Of a DNA stretch of 64,000 nucleotides, positions 24,338 to 63,183 are shown piece after piece (the stretch's first letter is position 1; every line of letters begins with the position of its first letter). Made by a program: the position numbers and the translations under genes. The notes below the pieces were generated by a model that did no database searches, was not told the DNA's origin, and saw only the letters and a program-made list of their open reading frames with translations. The stretch spans positions 1 through 64,000 of the forward strand of contig NZ_ADKM02000091.1 in assembly GCF_000178155.2 (NCBI RefSeq), given 5' to 3'. This DNA comes from Hominimerdicola alba 8 (GTDB lineage Bacteria > Bacillota > Clostridia > Oscillospirales > Ruminococcaceae).

Positions 24338-24681
24338 GTGAGCATGCCATACGGTAGCGGCAGCGGTCATACGCTGATGAGGAAAGTCCGAGCATCAACG
24401 AGCAGGATAGCTGATAACGTCAGCCGAGGGTGACCTCCGAGCTAGTGCAACAGAGATATACCGCCGCAGAGATGCGGTAAGGGTGGAAAGGCGGGGTAAG
24501 AGCCCACCGGAGCGGCAGAGATGCCGCTGCCATGTAAACCTTATCCGATGCAACACCAATGGCAGCCGAAAGGTCAATGCGCTCGTCAGACCCCAGGTTG
24601 TAGGTGGCTTGAGCTGTGGGGCGACCCACAGCCTAGATAGATTACCGTACAAGACAAAACTCGGCTTACAGACAGGCTCAC
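24338..24681 (+). ncRNA. rnpB: RNase P RNA, bacterial class A
   Basis: Catalytic RNA of ribonuclease P, which matures tRNA 5' ends. Conserved elements are seen in order: GAGGAAAGTCCGAGC near the 5' end, AGGGTGACCTCCGAGC, ACAGAGA, the GGTAAGGGTGGAAAGGCGGG region and GGCTTACAG near the 3' end. The ends pair as GTGAGC (24338-24343) with GCTCAC (24676-24681), forming P1. The 344-nt length is normal for the class. It has its own promoter and a strong terminator directly after it. Confidence 0.95.
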
Positions 24682-24711
24682 GCTCGCCCCGTTCACGCGG
24701 GGCGATTTTTT
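24682..24711 (+). terminator. Terminator of rnpB
   Basis: GCTCGCCCCG pairs with CGGGGCGA and is followed by six Ts. Confidence 0.85.
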
Positions 24712-26678: not shown

Positions 26679-26819
26679 ATAGACACAGTAAGGGAAACGA
26701 AAACAACATGAAGCTTCAAACGATCGATCGATGCGAGGTTTTCACCCTTAAATGAACAACTTAAGTAAGTACCCGCGAACGGCGGTTACTAATAGAAATT
26801 TATTATGGAGGGATTTTCT

Positions 26820-27329
26820 ATGAAAAATTCAAACAAGAAGGGCTTTACACTGGTTGAGCTCGTAGTAGTTATTGCGATCATCGGCGTGCTCGCAGCTATT
26901 CTCGTACCTAGCATGATGGGTTATGTTAAGAAGTCTAGACTGAAGACTGCTAACGGCAATGCTAAGACTGCTTACAATACCGCAGCTGGCGCACTGGCAG
27001 ATCTGGAAACCAACGGTATCCAGCTTGAGACAATTGATATCACTCAGAACTGCACAACTCCTGCTGCAAGTGTTCCTGACCTTGATGGTGATACTGTTGA
27101 TGGCGTTGCATATGTAACTGCTATTGTTCAGAACGCACTTGCTGCTAACGGCAATGACGGCGGCGAGGTATACATCAATGGTAATACCACTGCTACAGGT
27201 GTATGGGGCGCACAGTGGCACAGAAAGTCTGGCGATAAGATCGTTGGTCAGTATCCTGAGGCTCCTTCTACCGTAGAAAAGGCTGAGGCTATGAAATTCG
27301 GTGAGCTGAAGCTGAAGAACAAGGCTTAA
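26820..27329 (+). CDS. Type IV-like pilin 1 (R. albus PilA/GP25-like)
   Basis: A 169-residue prepilin. A short basic leader, KKG, precedes the class III cleavage site and the hydrophobic helix FTLVELVVVIAIIGVLAAIL with the invariant Glu at mature position 5. The C-terminal domain is short and contains one Cys. From established knowledge, R. albus carries tandem pilA genes whose product, GP25/CbpC, is linked to cellulose adhesion, and this gene looks like that protein. GGAGG precedes the ATG at 26820. A strong promoter, long leader and private terminator suggest high expression. No pilus assembly genes are in the window. Confidence 0.88.
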   Translation: MKNSNKKGFTLVELVVVIAIIGVLAAILVPSMMGYVKKSRLKTANGNAKTAYNTAAGALADLETNGIQLETIDITQNCTTPAASVPDLDGDTVDGVAYVTAIVQNALAANGNDGGEVYINGNTTATGVWGAQWHRKSGDKIVGQYPEAPSTVEKAEAMKFGELKLKNKA

Positions 27330-27506: not shown

Positions 27507-27974
27507 ATGAAAAACAAGAAGGGCTTTACACTCGTGGAGCTCGTCATTGTCATAGCTATTGTGGGCGTACTTGCTGCCATACTGGTGCCGATGATGATGG
27601 GCTATGTCAGAAAAGCGCGTCTGCGTCAGTGCAACGCCAACGCCAAAGTCGCCTATAATGTTGTGACTGGCGTTCAGGGTCAGAAGATGATCGACGGCGA
27701 AGATTATGCTATCAGTGATATCGTCATCGACTGTCGCGGCGATGAACCTGTGCCGAATGATGAACTGGGGCGAATGGTCTATAATTCAATCGCCGCCAAT
27801 GCCAAAAATTCGGGCATAATGTACATCGGCACGCGCGGCAAGGACGACAACGGCGATGACCTGCTGTATGTTCAGTGGATAATGAAGCCGGGCGATACTA
27901 TGGTAGGTCAGTATCCCAATGCTTCCAACAGCGTAGATAATGTTCCCACATGGAAAACTTATAAAGCAGACTGA
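27507..27974 (+). CDS. Type IV-like pilin 2
   Basis: A 155-residue prepilin with leader MKNKKG and the helix FTLVELVIVIAIVGVLAAIL. It is a paralogue of pilin 1: the first 50 residues are nearly the same (MGYVRKARLRQCNANAKVAYN against MGYVKKSRLKTANGNAKTAYN, written here only for comparison) and both share the late motif DxxVGQYP. The middle differs. The ATG at 27507 follows GGAGGG. It has its own promoter and terminator, so the ratio of the two pilins can vary. Confidence 0.87.
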   Translation: MKNKKGFTLVELVIVIAIVGVLAAILVPMMMGYVRKARLRQCNANAKVAYNVVTGVQGQKMIDGEDYAISDIVIDCRGDEPVPNDELGRMVYNSIAANAKNSGIMYIGTRGKDDNGDDLLYVQWIMKPGDTMVGQYPNASNSVDNVPTWKTYKAD

Positions 27975-34387: not shown

Positions 34388-35119
34388 TTAATACCAGCCG
34401 CCCATTTTTCCGTCACTGCCTATCTGCTGATTTGACAGATTTATGTTGTAGCAGTTTTCGGGAGATTTCTTCTTGCTGTCAGTATATATCTTGTCCCATG
34501 TGCCTGACCCGATAAAGTGGGCATCTTTCTCCATGTTGACGATATACTGACCACCGATGAATGTTACCAGTATGCCCTTGCGGTAAAGCTGTATCATGCG
34601 AACTTCGCCTGTGTCGTTGTACACAACAACAAGCCCGAAGTTTGTTTTGCAGTCCTTAAGGTATTTGCTGCAATTCTTTGAAGATGTATTGTATCCCAGC
34701 GGGTTGACTCTGCTGCCTGTCTTCCATGTTTCCGAAAAAGTAGCATCAAGTGCGCCGGCTATTACTCTGTCAACTGCCTGTGAACCGGTAGAAGTGCCCG
34801 GCTTGGTCGTTTTGTAGATATTCCAGCTGTAGTTTGTGAATGCGCCGACTCTTTCAAATTTTCTGTTTTTTCCACCCTGTTCAAGGTAAAGCACCTTGTT
34901 GAAGGCAGCATTCGTATCTTGTTCACTGAGTATAAGGTAGTCTGTCAAAGCTGCTTCTATCGATGTCTTGATGACTTTGGTATCCGCAACAGCAGCAGCG
35001 ACCCTTGCTTTTCTTACATACCCGATCAAGCTGGGTATAAGCAATGTGGCAAGAATCCCGACTATGGCAATAACAATAGCTAATTCAACTAATGTGAAAC
35101 CTTTCTTATTATTTTTCAT
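34388..35119 (-). CDS. Type IV-like pilin 3 (larger pseudopilin-like protein)
   Basis: A 243-residue prepilin with leader MKNNKKG and helix FTLVELAIVIAIVGILATLL, then GYVRKARVAAAVADTKVIKT. The N-terminus is close to pilins 1 and 2, but the C-terminal domain is about 80 residues longer and has no obvious relation. It contains four Cys-free beta-like stretches and two Cys near 156 and 163. AAAGGG precedes the ATG. It stands alone 7 kb from the pilin pair with no assembly genes near, so it may be a minor pilin or a separate adhesin. Confidence 0.83.
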   Translation of the reverse strand: MKNNKKGFTLVELAIVIAIVGILATLLIPSLIGYVRKARVAAAVADTKVIKTSIEAALTDYLILSEQDTNAAFNKVLYLEQGGKNRKFERVGAFTNYSWNIYKTTKPGTSTGSQAVDRVIAGALDATFSETWKTGSRVNPLGYNTSSKNCSKYLKDCKTNFGLVVVYNDTGEVRMIQLYRKGILVTFIGGQYIVNMEKDAHFIGSGTWDKIYTDSKKKSPENCYNINLSNQQIGSDGKMGGWY

Positions 35120-43750: not shown

Positions 43751-43786
43751 ACGCGGTACTTTCATGAACAGTACCGTGTTTTCGGG
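43751..43786 (+). terminator. Terminator of the 43.1-kb gene
   Basis: CGGTACT pairs with AGTACCG, followed by TGTTTTC. The right half (TACCGTGTTTTCGGGC) is almost the start of each 282-bp tandem unit, so the array seems to have grown from this junction. Confidence 0.65.
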
Positions 43787-43789
43787 CAA

Positions 43790-43966
43790 AAAAAAATTAA
43801 CGCCCACTTCTGATTCGGCGTGAAATGAGCATTAATTTTCTTATAGAATTATGAAAGGGATTTGATGATTGGCAAAACCTGCATCGGCGTTTGTAGACTC
43901 TGCCAATCACCAATAGGTAGGAAAAAGAAAGGTTTGGAGGGACTTTCTTGTCATTTCCTTTACTGT
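43790..43966 (-). ncRNA. Candidate small RNA, unit 1
   Basis: Minus-strand reading: a conserved upstream block (CATGTTCGGTTCA, then GTGTTATCATATA), then about 177 nt. The body holds a stem GATTGGCA/TGCCAATC around a 27-nt loop. The 3' end is a 14-bp stem (TTAATGCTCATTTC with GAAGTGGGCGTTAA, three G-U pairs) followed by a run of at least seven Ts, an intrinsic terminator. The plus strand cannot form these G-U pairs. A plus-strand 63-codon frame overlaps. Confidence 0.45.
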
Positions 43967-44071
43967 ATCTATATGATAACACGCCTGTGTGAACCGAACA
44001 TGAATTTTAGGGCAGATTTTTTGGATTTCCTCAAAAAAATTTCAAACGATTGAGATACCGTATTTTCGGGC

Positions 44072-44248
44072 AAAAAAATTAACGCCCACTTCTGATTCGG
44101 CGTGAAATGAGCATTAATTTTCTTATAGAATTATGAAAGGGATTTGATGATTGGCAAAACCTGCATCGGCGTTTGTAGACTCTGCCAATCACCAATAGGT
44201 AGGAAAAAGAAAGGTTTGGAGGGACTTTCTTGTCATTTCCTTTACTGT
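44072..44248 (-). ncRNA. Candidate small RNA, unit 2
   Basis: Essentially identical to unit 1 apart from the length of the terminal T-run. Confidence 0.45.
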
Positions 44249-44353
44249 ATCTATATGATAACACGCCTGTGTGAACCGAACATGAATTTTAGGGCAGATT
44301 TTTTGGATTTCCTCAAAAAAATTTCAAACGATTGAGATACCGTATTTTCGGGC

Positions 44354-44530
44354 AAAAAAATTAACGCCCACTTCTGATTCGGCGTGAAATGAGCATTAAT
44401 TTTCTTATAGAATTATGAAAGGGATTTGATGATTGGCAAAACCTGCATCGGCGTTTGTAGACTTTGCCAATCACCAATAGGTAGGAAAAAGAAAGGTTTG
44501 GAGGGACTTTCTTGTCATTTCCTTTACTGT
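44354..44530 (-). ncRNA. Candidate small RNA, unit 3
   Basis: As unit 1, but the base next to the GATTGGCA stem changes from G to A on the minus strand, turning a G-U into an A-U pair and so keeping the stem. In the plus-strand frame the same change is synonymous (CTC to CTT). Confidence 0.45.
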
Positions 44531-44636
44531 ATCTATATGATAACACGCCTGTGTGAACCGAACATGAATTTTCGGGCAGATTTTTTGGATTTTCTCAAAA
44601 AAATTTCAAACGATTGAGATGCCGTATTTTCGGGCA

Positions 44637-44813
44637 AAAAAAATTAACGCTCACTTCTGATTCGGCGTGAAATGAGCATTAATTTTCTTATAGAATTATG
44701 AAAGGGATTTGATGATTGGCAAAACCTGCATCGGCGTTTGTAGACTTTGCCAATCACCAATAGGTAGGAAAAAGAAAGGTTTGGAGGGACTTTCTTGTCA
44801 TTTCCTTTACTGT
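44637..44813 (-). ncRNA. Candidate small RNA, unit 4
   Basis: As unit 3, with one further change in the terminator stem that converts a G-U into an A-U pair on the minus strand. The overlapping plus-strand frame gains two amino-acid changes here (Arg to Leu, Phe to Leu). Confidence 0.45.
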
Positions 44814-44918
44814 ATCTATATGATAACACTCCTGTGTGAACCGAACATGAATTTTCGGGCAGATCTTTTGGATTTTCTCAAAAAAATTTCAAACGATTGA
44901 GATACCGTAATTTCGGGC

Positions 44919-45130
44919 AAAAAAAATTAACGCCCACTTCTGATTCGGCGTGAAATGAGCATTAATTTTCTTATAGAATTATGAAAGGGATTTGATTTGG
45001 AAAAACGGTAAAACCTAATGTCATTGAAGTGCGACTTGGGGGATCGCGCGAGGGAAAACTTCTAAATTCATAGAGTTGGGGTTTCAACGGACACTAGGCT
45101 TTACCGCTTCGCCAAACCCTTTTTTTAGTT
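44919..45130 (-). ncRNA. Candidate small RNA, divergent unit 5 with long stem
   Basis: Same terminator and similar promoter-like block as units 1-4, but a different body of about 125 nt. Its outer stem pairs CGGTAAAGCCTAGTGTC plus CGTTGAA (complement of 45083-45106) with TTCAATGACATTAGGTTTTA and CCG (complement of 45006-45028). This is a near-continuous helix of 22-23 bp in which two mismatches on the plus strand become G-U pairs on the minus strand. The loop includes GTTGAAACCCCAAC and CCCTCGCGCGATCCCCC. No plus-strand peptide like that of units 1-4 is kept. Class unknown. Confidence 0.5.
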
Positions 45131-45387
45131 CGGTTATATAATAACACCCCAATATGAACCGAACATGAACTGTCGGAAGTATTTCCAAATCGGAAAGTAT
45201 TTTGTCATTATGTACAAAACATAGCGCAGGAATTTGTTTGTTTGGTCGATGAAATATCCGTTTTGTCATTATAAAATCAAGTTTTTTATGAACTTGTGCA
45301 TGATATAATTTTAACAAGTGATCCTTTCTTGTGTGAATTACGATATGTGCAAACTTGTAAATGTTTTGTGAACAGTGTTGAAAGCGT

Positions 45388-45416: not shown

Positions 45417-45480
45417 CTAAAGTGGGAGAACTTTTATTGTACCTTTTGTGATTTATAGAATTTGAAAGGATCGTGACACT

Positions 45481-46155
45481 ATGTTTCAGATACTTGTTGT
45501 TGAGGACGATGCCAGCCTGCGCAGACTTATGAGTGCTGCACTCAAACAGAACGGCTATCAGCCCTTTACCGCCAATGACGGCGTAGAGGCGCTGGATATG
45601 CTTGAAAAGACAAATATCGACCTGATAATATCAGATATAATGATGCCTAATATGGACGGCTATGAACTGACCAGACAGCTGAGAAACGCCGATTTCCAGA
45701 TACCTATCATAATGGTGACGGCTAAGGAGAGTTTCGAGGACAAGAAAGAAGGCTTCGGTGCGGGTGCTGATGACTATATGGTCAAGCCCATCGACATAAA
45801 TGAAATGATACTGAGAGTAGGCGCACTGCTCAAACGCTCGAAATTAGCCAGTGAACATACCATGACGGTGGGCAGCTGCGTGCTTGATTACGATGCGCAG
45901 ACAGTTTCCATCGATGGCGGCGCGGGTGAAACTATACCGCAGATGGAATTCAAACTGTTGTTCAAACTGCTGTCATACCCCAACAAGATATTCACCCGCC
46001 GCCAGCTGTTGGACGAACTGTGGGGCATGGACAAGGACGTTGATGAGAGAACTGTCGATGTGCATATCAAGCGTCTGCGTGAACGCTACGGCAGTACTGA
46101 TGATTTCTCGATAGTAACGGTGAGAGGGCTTGGCTATAAGGCGGTAAAGAAGTGA
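45481..46155 (+). CDS. OmpR/PhoB-family response regulator
   Basis: A 224-residue two-domain regulator. The receiver domain has the acidic pair EDD near residue 8, the phosphoacceptor Asp in IISDIMMPN near 54, the switch Thr in MVTAKE and Lys in MVKPID. The winged-helix domain ends with VDVHIKRLRERYG and VRGLGYKAVKK. Its stop codon overlaps the GTG start of the kinase gene. The target genes are not obvious from the neighbours. Confidence 0.92.
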   Translation: MFQILVVEDDASLRRLMSAALKQNGYQPFTANDGVEALDMLEKTNIDLIISDIMMPNMDGYELTRQLRNADFQIPIIMVTAKESFEDKKEGFGAGADDYMVKPIDINEMILRVGALLKRSKLASEHTMTVGSCVLDYDAQTVSIDGGAGETIPQMEFKLLFKLLSYPNKIFTRRQLLDELWGMDKDVDERTVDVHIKRLRERYGSTDDFSIVTVRGLGYKAVKK

Positions 46156-47519
46156 AAAGACAGGTAAAGAACACGGTAAACAAGGCGGTGCAGAACTTAA
46201 AGCACCCCCAGACCCAGAGAATGACCATGCAGTTCAAGCTGGCGATGATGTTCTTCATCGTCATGTTCATATCGGCAAGTATATCGGTCAGTGTGCTGCT
46301 GCTGATATTCAGCCCGATAATGCGCGAAAATTCAAAGACACAGCTGGTGTCCTTTGCAAATTCCGCAACTTCGCTTGAACGTGAGCATTTTAATTATGAA
46401 ACGATAATCAGTCTGCTGAACACGCCGTCTTACGAGATAAGACAGCTGTCGCCCGAAAATTCGCTGGTCAAAGACCACGAAGAGGAACTGGAAAAGGAAG
46501 GCTATGTCATCAATACCGAAGGCATAGTGCCGCGTGCGGAGATGCTGACGATCATAGACGGTCAGTATGTGCTGATAAATTCTTTCAACAGTGAAAATGT
46601 CTACTGGGTGGTGAATTTTGTCACCATAGTGGGATTTATCTCCAGTATACTGCTGGGTACTATAATCACGACTTTTGTGGGCAGGACGATGCTCCAGCCG
46701 ATACACGACCTGAGTATGGCGACATCTGAGGTCGCGAGGGGCAATTTCTCGGTAAGGGTGCGCGAGAACGGTGCGGACGAATATGGCATTCTTCAGCGCA
46801 ACTTCAACAAGATGGCGCAGGAACTTTCGGGTATAGAAACACTGAGGGGCGATTTCATTTCCAACGTTTCCCACGAGTTCAAAACGCCGCTGGCATCTAT
46901 ACAGGGCTTTGCAAAACTTTTGCAGGATCCTCTGCTCTCGTCTGCTGACAGGGCTGAGTACACGCAGATAATAATTGATGAAACATCAAGGCTTTCAAAG
47001 CTGTCATCGAACATACTCAGCCTGACAAAACTTGAGAACCAGACCACTATCGGCAAGAAGAAGCGTTTCCGCATAGATGAACAGATACGCAAGATAATAC
47101 TCATGCTTGAGCCTGAATGGTCGAAAAAAGATATCGATATGGATATCGACTTAGAGGACATAATCTATGTGGGCAACGAAGACCTTATGGGGCAGATATG
47201 GCAGAATATAATAAACAACGCCATAAAGTTCACGCCGCAGAACGGCATCATAAAGGTGAACCTGTTTCGCGGCGGCAACGGTATAGTCACTAAAATATGG
47301 GATAACGGTCCGCAGATACCTGCCGACAAGAAGGATAAGATATTCGAGAAATTTTATCAGGGTGACCGTTCGCGTGCCACTGAGGGAAACGGTCTTGGGC
47401 TGGCGCTGGTCAAGAGGATAGTAGACCTTGCAGACGGCAAGATAAGCGTAGACAATCCCTTTGAGGGCGGTGTGGTATTCACGGTCGAACTCCCTTACCA
47501 GACTGAGGAAATGATGTGA
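46152..47519 (+). CDS. Sensor histidine kinase
   Basis: A 455-residue membrane kinase and partner of the preceding regulator. Transmembrane helices lie at about 28-55 and 155-178, enclosing an extracellular sensor of about 100 residues. A HAMP domain follows (about 178-230), then HisKA with the phosphoacceptor in NVSHEFKTPL and the ATPase domain with the N box NIINNAIKFTP, G1 WDNGPQIP and G2 GNGLGLAL. The start is a GTG overlapping the previous stop; AAGGCGG lies upstream. The stimulus is unknown. Confidence 0.92.
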   Translation: MKRQVKNTVNKAVQNLKHPQTQRMTMQFKLAMMFFIVMFISASISVSVLLLIFSPIMRENSKTQLVSFANSATSLEREHFNYETIISLLNTPSYEIRQLSPENSLVKDHEEELEKEGYVINTEGIVPRAEMLTIIDGQYVLINSFNSENVYWVVNFVTIVGFISSILLGTIITTFVGRTMLQPIHDLSMATSEVARGNFSVRVRENGADEYGILQRNFNKMAQELSGIETLRGDFISNVSHEFKTPLASIQGFAKLLQDPLLSSADRAEYTQIIIDETSRLSKLSSNILSLTKLENQTTIGKKKRFRIDEQIRKIILMLEPEWSKKDIDMDIDLEDIIYVGNEDLMGQIWQNIINNAIKFTPQNGIIKVNLFRGGNGIVTKIWDNGPQIPADKKDKIFEKFYQGDRSRATEGNGLGLALVKRIVDLADGKISVDNPFEGGVVFTVELPYQTEEMM

Positions 47520-63010: not shown

Positions 63011-63039
63011 TTTTCCGCATCGCAGATAGATAATATGTT

Positions 63040-63171
63040 TCAGGGGTGGTGTGATTCCACACCGGAGGTGATCGCGGCAAGCTGACCGCGTAAGTCCTCG
63101 ACCGCACAAAAGTGCGCTGATCGGGTGAGATTCCCGAACCGACGGTAAGAGTCCGGATGGAAGAAACGACA
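63040..63171 (+). promoter_or_regulatory. FMN riboswitch (RFN element)
   Basis: The conserved RFN order is visible: CAGGGGTGGTGTGATTCC, CACCGGAGGT, then after a variable stem TAAGTCC, a second variable stem, GGGTGAGATTCCCGAACCGACGGT and AGAGTCCGGATGGAAGAAAC at the end. It binds FMN and turns off the downstream gene. It is followed by an intrinsic terminator and a riboflavin transporter gene, as expected. Confidence 0.95.
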
Positions 63172-63183
63172 TTTTTTCGCAAA

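Follow-up and report, generated by a model that had tools for sequence, protein, structure and literature searches.

A tandem array on the minus strand of the window (the whole 64,000-nt stretch of DNA that we analyzed) is a predicted small-RNA family that is absent from Rfam 15. We regard the family as new, within a kind of function that is already known. Weighing the sequence comparisons described below, we lean toward a model in which a response regulator activates sibling small RNAs that would block ribosome-binding sites, with the mRNA of a type IV pilin as their main conserved target. The link to a two-component system and the candidate targets go beyond the interpretation given in the first-pass annotation of this DNA, which had recognized the array itself.

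The array contains five units, four of 282/283 bp and a fifth with a different core, in agreement with that annotation. A 299-nt stretch was present in four copies (96-100% identity to the reference copy; spacing 282, 282, and 283 bp), and an 87-nt terminator end and a 42-nt promoter end were each present in five copies, indicating that unit 5 has only its ends in common with units 1-4. Units 1-4 are type A and are at 43787-44004, 44069-44286, 44351-44568 (unit 3, used for folding), and 44634-44851, all on the minus strand. Unit 5 (44917-45169, minus strand) has a type B core between promoter and terminator ends that are the same as those of the other units. In unit 1, the promoter box is at 43990-44004 and the terminator is at the low end. 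Judging from the promoter and terminator, the predicted RNAs are roughly 175-215 nt long. The array had no match near any family's own cut-off in Rfam 15, at gathering thresholds or at E up to 5, and the first-pass annotation likewise knew of no described family with this design. Rfam did identify RNase P RNA (class A) and an FMN riboswitch elsewhere in the window (24339-24684 and 63032-63172).

The common block ahead of the units is a predicted promoter. The consensus is TTCAT(A/G)TTCGGTTCACA, followed by TGnTATTATATA, that is, a direct repeat with an 11-bp period and an extended -10. The unit 1 promoter (43972-44004, minus strand) has the repeat TTCATG-N5-TTCACA and the -10 TATCAT, and the promoters of units 2-5 are at 44254-44286, 44536-44568, 44819-44851, and 45137-45169, also on the minus strand. 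We tested a pattern that permits 9-12 nt from box to -10 on 55 distinct unit sequences and found that 47 fit; the distance was 11 nt in all 40 distinct promoters of these units. The other eight fell outside the pattern because a box half or the -10 departs from it. Searching the 29 genomes of the genus for a strict box plus -10 gave 34 sites, spread over 21 of them; the other eight had no strict site, and the reversed pattern had none at all. By coordinates, 33 of the 34 were close to a match of the covariance model described below, on the same contig, and the last (in genome G026) was on a locus with the regulator gene. In the genome that contains the window, the only strict sites were those of the five units. 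Allowing up to two mismatches in the box gave 126 sites there, compared to 47 for the reversed pattern, and the five exact ones were those of the array. Among the exact and one-mismatch box sites of this genome, we saw no sign of a wider direct regulon: none of the eight sites with one mismatch had a -10 at 9-12 nt.

The two-component system next door probably switches the array on. The presumed activator is a response regulator of the OmpR/PhoB type (45481-46155, plus strand) that is divergent from the array, and its gene is followed by that of a histidine kinase with HAMP, HisKA, and HATPase_c domains (46152-47519, plus strand). We left the system unnamed because neither protein reached an NCBIfam equivalog cut-off among the matches listed. 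Using the regulator as a query, we recovered 80 loci. The same promoters were present at 16 of these (L008-L022 and L033, titled Ruminococcus, uncultured Clostridiales, or Clostridia), where the regulator was 71-99% identical; at the other 64, the matches listed all had E above 0.5. At one of the 16 (L009), the promoter is present and the contig ends before the linker. The same response-regulator gene was also found at 37 of 49 loci that we opened (L129-L177), and some of the 12 where it was not seen are long arrays or contig ends. This synteny, together with the exclusive promoter box, suggests that the regulator binds the box. At two loci (L016 and L017), an extra strict promoter nearer the regulator gene precedes a short hairpin that has no linker.

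A covariance-model search of Ruminococcaceae genomes, which the first-pass annotation had proposed, found the family throughout the genus and in few genomes elsewhere. The model was built on the 3' module. In the genome that contains the window (4.05 Mb), it matched the five places of the array at E of about 1e-13, and the only other match (E 0.76) was to the plus strand of unit 4; a DNA search of the same genome found one further match, of 27 bp (L007). The model matched 28 of 29 genomes of the genus, including 20/20 of high quality (the miss, G006, is 80% complete), and 27 of 396 genomes in 5 of 126 genera of the family, counts that do not represent independent events because the genomes are related. 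We set aside the match in genus g14 (G041, 41.8 bits) as probably false, as the part of its locus (L175) that we read had no linker or promoter, and its removal reduces the number of genera from five to four.

The part of the RNA that presumably pairs with targets is a linker, AUCCCUUUCAUAAUUCUAUA, that is nearly invariant, predicted to be largely single-stranded, and common to the units. In unit 1 it is AAAUCCCUUUCAUAAUUCUAUA (43842-43863, minus strand), and in units 2-5 it begins at 44124, 44406, 44689, and 44972 (minus strand). We hybridized the linker with 353 heuristic translation starts from the window plus 400 kb, about a tenth of the genome. The leader of the regulator itself ranked first (-18.7 kcal/mol; mean -8.4, sd 2.7), compared to rank 271 with the reversed linker, and none of 3000 shuffles of either kind matched this pairing. 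The complementary region, with one bulge, is the ribosome-binding region of the regulator mRNA (45454-45471, plus strand). The pattern ATAGAATTN0-3TGAAAGG occurred six times in the genome, in the five array copies and in the regulator leader, and there was no other 20-nt linker target with up to three mismatches in this genome.

Pairing with the regulator leader was not a general rule. Among 42 distinct regulator leaders, the mean was -11.3 with the linker and -10.8 with the reversed linker, and we rejected the rule because the control was nearly as good. When the regulator was at least 92% identical (ten leaders), values split evenly, with five at -15.3 to -20.0 and five at -7.8 to -11.1, and two leaders with an 80%-identical regulator were at -17.7. 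Of four other matches to the linker complement outside arrays in the genus, two were 11 nt (L189) and 16 nt (L183) ahead of a long frame; that at L354 had only frames of 8 and 14 codons downstream, and that at L355 had no frame within 20 nt.

The candidate conserved target is the block TTATGGAGGGATTT (26803-26816, plus strand) in the ribosome-binding region of a type IV pilin mRNA. The gene (26820-27329, plus strand) is pilA1/cbpC-like by position and prepilin motif, and we infer the name pilA1 from the literature. A second pilin gene (27507-27974, plus strand) has a leader, CGGAGGGA, that is complementary to the UCCCUCC loop found in unit 1 (43936-43942, minus strand) and once in each of units 2-4. 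Pfam N_methyl confirmed both as pilins, and the gene at 35119 was judged to be one from its N-terminus. Pilin-like genes in the window ranked third and fifth among the 353 leaders, seven of which contain GGAGGGA. The predicted duplex between the block and AAAUCCCUUUCAUAA spans 14 nt and has one bulge, and GGAGGGA is complementary to UCCCUCC. For linker variants from other genera, pairing was at -12.8 to -17.7 kcal/mol. Compared to shuffled linkers, pairing with the pilin leader had p values of 0.019 (dinucleotide) and 0.0007 (mononucleotide), and pairing with the block alone had p values of 0.057 and 0.003, respectively.

The block was conserved ahead of pilin genes in the genus. Pilins of this kind were present in 29/29 genomes, and 28 of these had the block, at 29 sites; the reversed pattern was absent except for one site in G023. 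All but one of the 29 sites were ahead of a pilin start, the exception being the second site of G012. The distance from block to start varies by single bases, so the block does not extend the pilin in frame, and by eye the leader diverges outside the block. Genome G006 has the block without a model match and G014 has a model match without the block, and both count against the model. In G014 the linker is altered (CCCAUUC): of the two pilin leaders opened in this genome, one was at -15.1 with this linker and at -18.0 with the standard one, and the other paired weakly. There is thus no sign of compensation between linker and leader in this genome, as its own linker pairs worse than the standard one.

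The block and the small RNA also occurred together in the family. With the g14 match left out, 25 of 26 genomes with the small RNA had the block, compared to 28 of 369 others (Fisher p about 1e-23, a value that ignores kinship). We opened 23 of these 25 (leaving out G376 and G398) and found a pilin in all of them; in the one small-RNA genome without the block (G384), the pilin is cut off at a contig end. We opened 15 of the 28 genomes that have the block without a detected small RNA, and the block preceded pilins in four and was not at a pilin in the other 11. Among 16 genomes taken to be free of the small RNA (including G041), seven had a pilin match, and the leaders that we read at six of these seven loci lacked the block. 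The four pilins with the block are from genus g126, in 4/4 of the genomes sampled, and count against pilin targeting unless a diverged small RNA was missed there, which may be so because the model was run on the family genomes with stricter filters.

It is possible, and in our judgment rather unlikely, that the small RNAs are real and driven by the regulator, that the pilin block is kept for efficient translation or for some other factor, and that the linker acts on other mRNAs. The block contains GGAGGG, which is a good Shine-Dalgarno sequence and might be conserved simply because translation requires it, genus g126 keeps it with no small RNA detected, and the support for pairing from shuffled linkers is modest. 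However, the flanks of the Shine-Dalgarno core (TTAT upstream, ATTT downstream) are likewise conserved in all but one of the 29 genus genomes, and both are within the predicted duplex, whereas at the same loci the leaders of the regulator show free variation.

The putative transcript start TATAGnYACAGTAARGGAA is common to the pilin gene (26678, plus strand), units 1-4 (43973, 44255, 44537, and 44820, minus strand), and a gene for a VFILDRSGSM protein (L007, about 1509), and there was no further site within two substitutions in the window plus the 400 kb sampled. In genus g60, the block TTATGGAGGGATTT is ahead of a VFILDRSGSM gene (L359 and L360), in two genomes without a detected small RNA; the gene downstream of the L007 match in the genome that contains the window has an N-terminus similar to this one. 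In genus g71 (L364, genome G098), an exact TTCATATTCGGTTCA box without a fitting -10 is at about 765, ahead of a pilin gene that has the block, and direct control of this pilin by the regulator is possible.

The predicted RNAs have conserved structure that favors the minus strand, in line with the first-pass annotation. Minus-strand folds were far below dinucleotide shuffles (z -6.25 for unit 3 and -9.10 for unit 5), and plus-strand folds were at z -2.47 and -2.38. In unit 3, the UCCCUCC loop and all but the final two bases of the linker were predicted to be unpaired at 0.96 or more, apart from the U that opens the loop (0.80). In unit 5, by contrast, the linker was predicted to be paired at CCCUU. 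We read 36 linker-terminator modules, five of them from the window, and 27 were used in alignment A1. The terminator stem reported earlier is present (unit 1, 43788-43838, minus strand, with a U-tract), and the stated length of 14 bp was too short: there are 17 pairs over the alignment and 21-22 in single folds. In A1, 96.9% of cells were paired, compared to 38-57% in slid controls, and 10 pairs changed on both sides, a number reached by 1 of 500 shuffles; the covariation score was reached by none. The two changes from G-U to A-U that had been noticed also exist, GTGAGCG for GTGGGCG in unit 4 and an alternation of GGCAGAG and GGCAAAG (columns 42/84 of alignment A1 and 62/94 of alignment A2).

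The cores are exchangeable modules between a conserved promoter and a conserved linker and terminator, which bears out the idea of a multiplied regulatory RNA family with an exchanged core: cores are swapped, combined, or missing, and units in other genomes include some with B and A modules in series and some with no core. The type A core (units 1-4) has a hairpin with the invariant UCCCUCC loop and then a second hairpin with an ACGCCGA loop. The type B core (unit 5) has a long hairpin containing UUCCCUC, accompanied in most members by a small hairpin with a CCCC loop. For type B, 94.4% of cells were paired and two-sided changes were seen at 10 of the 22 pairs (12/500 shuffles), with a covariation score reached by 0/500. 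Support from covariation is less clear for type A, in which pairing was 96.7% for the second helix and 72% for the UCCCUCC helix, and five pairs in the two helices changed on both sides versus 3.8 in shuffles (125/500; covariation score 3/500). Alignment A5, 18 sequences chosen by a motif filter, replaced A3/A4, whose references (L138; L135-L137, L140) were shifted or cut. The conservation and covariation in other genomes exclude a chance origin of the array pattern.

GCCGA is in the loops of two different hairpins, those of the terminator and of type A (e.g., 43812-43820, minus strand). It is improbable, in our view, that the RNAs mainly sequester a protein through the GCCGA loops of the terminator and the second type A hairpin, in the manner of RsmY/RsmZ. 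The array is multicopy, and there is next to no variation in the ACGCCGA of the type A loop or the GCCGA of the terminator loop, but sequestration leaves unexplained the linker, which is equally conserved and predicted to be unpaired.

That the units are short protein genes on either strand is very improbable. Both frames are open in units 1-4, and we evaluated the 63-aa plus-strand and 61-aa minus-strand frames as genes. Some plus-frame matches in homologues were uninterrupted, but among the 10 homologous loci examined, other matches were often broken by stops or covered part of the frame, some units in other genomes have no core, and there was no Pfam match. The stems covary, and we did not find conservation of the plus frame in place of the stems, which had been named as evidence against an RNA. 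We rejected a mobile or spreading functionless repeat, which the near identity of the tandem copies might suggest, as scarcely credible: there is a single locus in this genome, other species have the array at the same place beside the regulator, and the stems covary.

In the CiaRH regulon of Streptococcus, several related csRNAs are under one two-component system, as proposed for the array, with a direct repeat of the form hexamer-N5-hexamer some 10 nt upstream of the -10 and a conserved unpaired stretch between stem-loops that is complementary to Shine-Dalgarno sequences (PMC3091779). The unit 3 linker is predicted to have this character, and the unit 5 linker to be partly paired. The array repeat, TTCATA/G-N5-TTCACA, agrees with that given for the csRNAs, (N/T)TTAAG-N5-TTTAAG, in the N5 spacing alone, and the window regulator has TVDVHIKRLRERY in the region of the CiaR recognition helix, VVEVYVSKVRKKL, suggesting by eye that it is not CiaR (PMC3091779). 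Unlike the csRNAs as described there, the units are in a tandem array beside the regulator and have exchanged cores, and by eye the linker is not built for a Shine-Dalgarno sequence and start codon in that order.

LhrC is included in Rfam. LhrC1-5 has a different target from that proposed for the array, and the array has no Rfam 15 match at or near gathering. In Listeria monocytogenes, there are also five copies of LhrC, expression needs the two-component system LisRK, and redundant UCCC motifs are in a loop and a single-stranded stretch; the described target is an adhesin whose translation is impeded (PMC4132741). LhrC also has UCCC in its terminator loop (PMC4132741), where the array has GCCGA; UCCC in the array is found in a loop and in the linker. 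From the account of other UCCC-motif small RNAs of low-GC bacteria (RNAIII, RsaE, SprD, and FsrA), C-rich loops or linkers are expected to pair with ribosome-binding sites, as proposed here (PMC4132741), and no Rfam family reached threshold in the array. As these sources describe them, csRNAs and LhrC act in the manner that we propose, and the array lacks sequence features that define them.

Based on these comparisons, we lean toward the view that the response regulator would bind repeats of the TTCATA-N5-TTCACA type and activate all copies of the array, giving five sibling small RNAs, each with its own promoter, C-rich loops or linker, and intrinsic terminator. These would pair through AUCCCUUUCAUAA (and in type A also through UCCCUCC) with ribosome-binding sites and block translation, chiefly that of type IV pilin mRNA. 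The ribosome-binding site of the regulator mRNA would be covered by the linker as well in some members of the R. albus clade, which could amount to negative feedback. More tentatively, and at somewhat less than even chances, we suggest that a two-component system with no strict sites other than the promoters of a small-RNA array mainly sets pilin translation and attachment, through pairing conserved in four genera, that the interchangeable C-rich hairpins bring in additional targets, and that there is feedback on the regulator in part of the R. albus clade.

Our searches of the open-licence literature gave no report of small RNAs of this kind in Ruminococcus. Pilin-like proteins have been implicated in adhesion of R. 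albus to cellulose (PMC4300822, PMC3672088), and transcription of pilin-like genes in R. albus 7 was described as unchanged on cellulose (PMC4300822), which would fit translational control. Ruminococcus includes primary fiber degraders, and since a nearly fixed stretch of the array fits the region where translation of a pilus gene starts, the array may control the attachment of these bacteria. If true, attachment could be approached directly and testably through the array, and the pairing of a small RNA with its target would be an example of one conserved over four genera.
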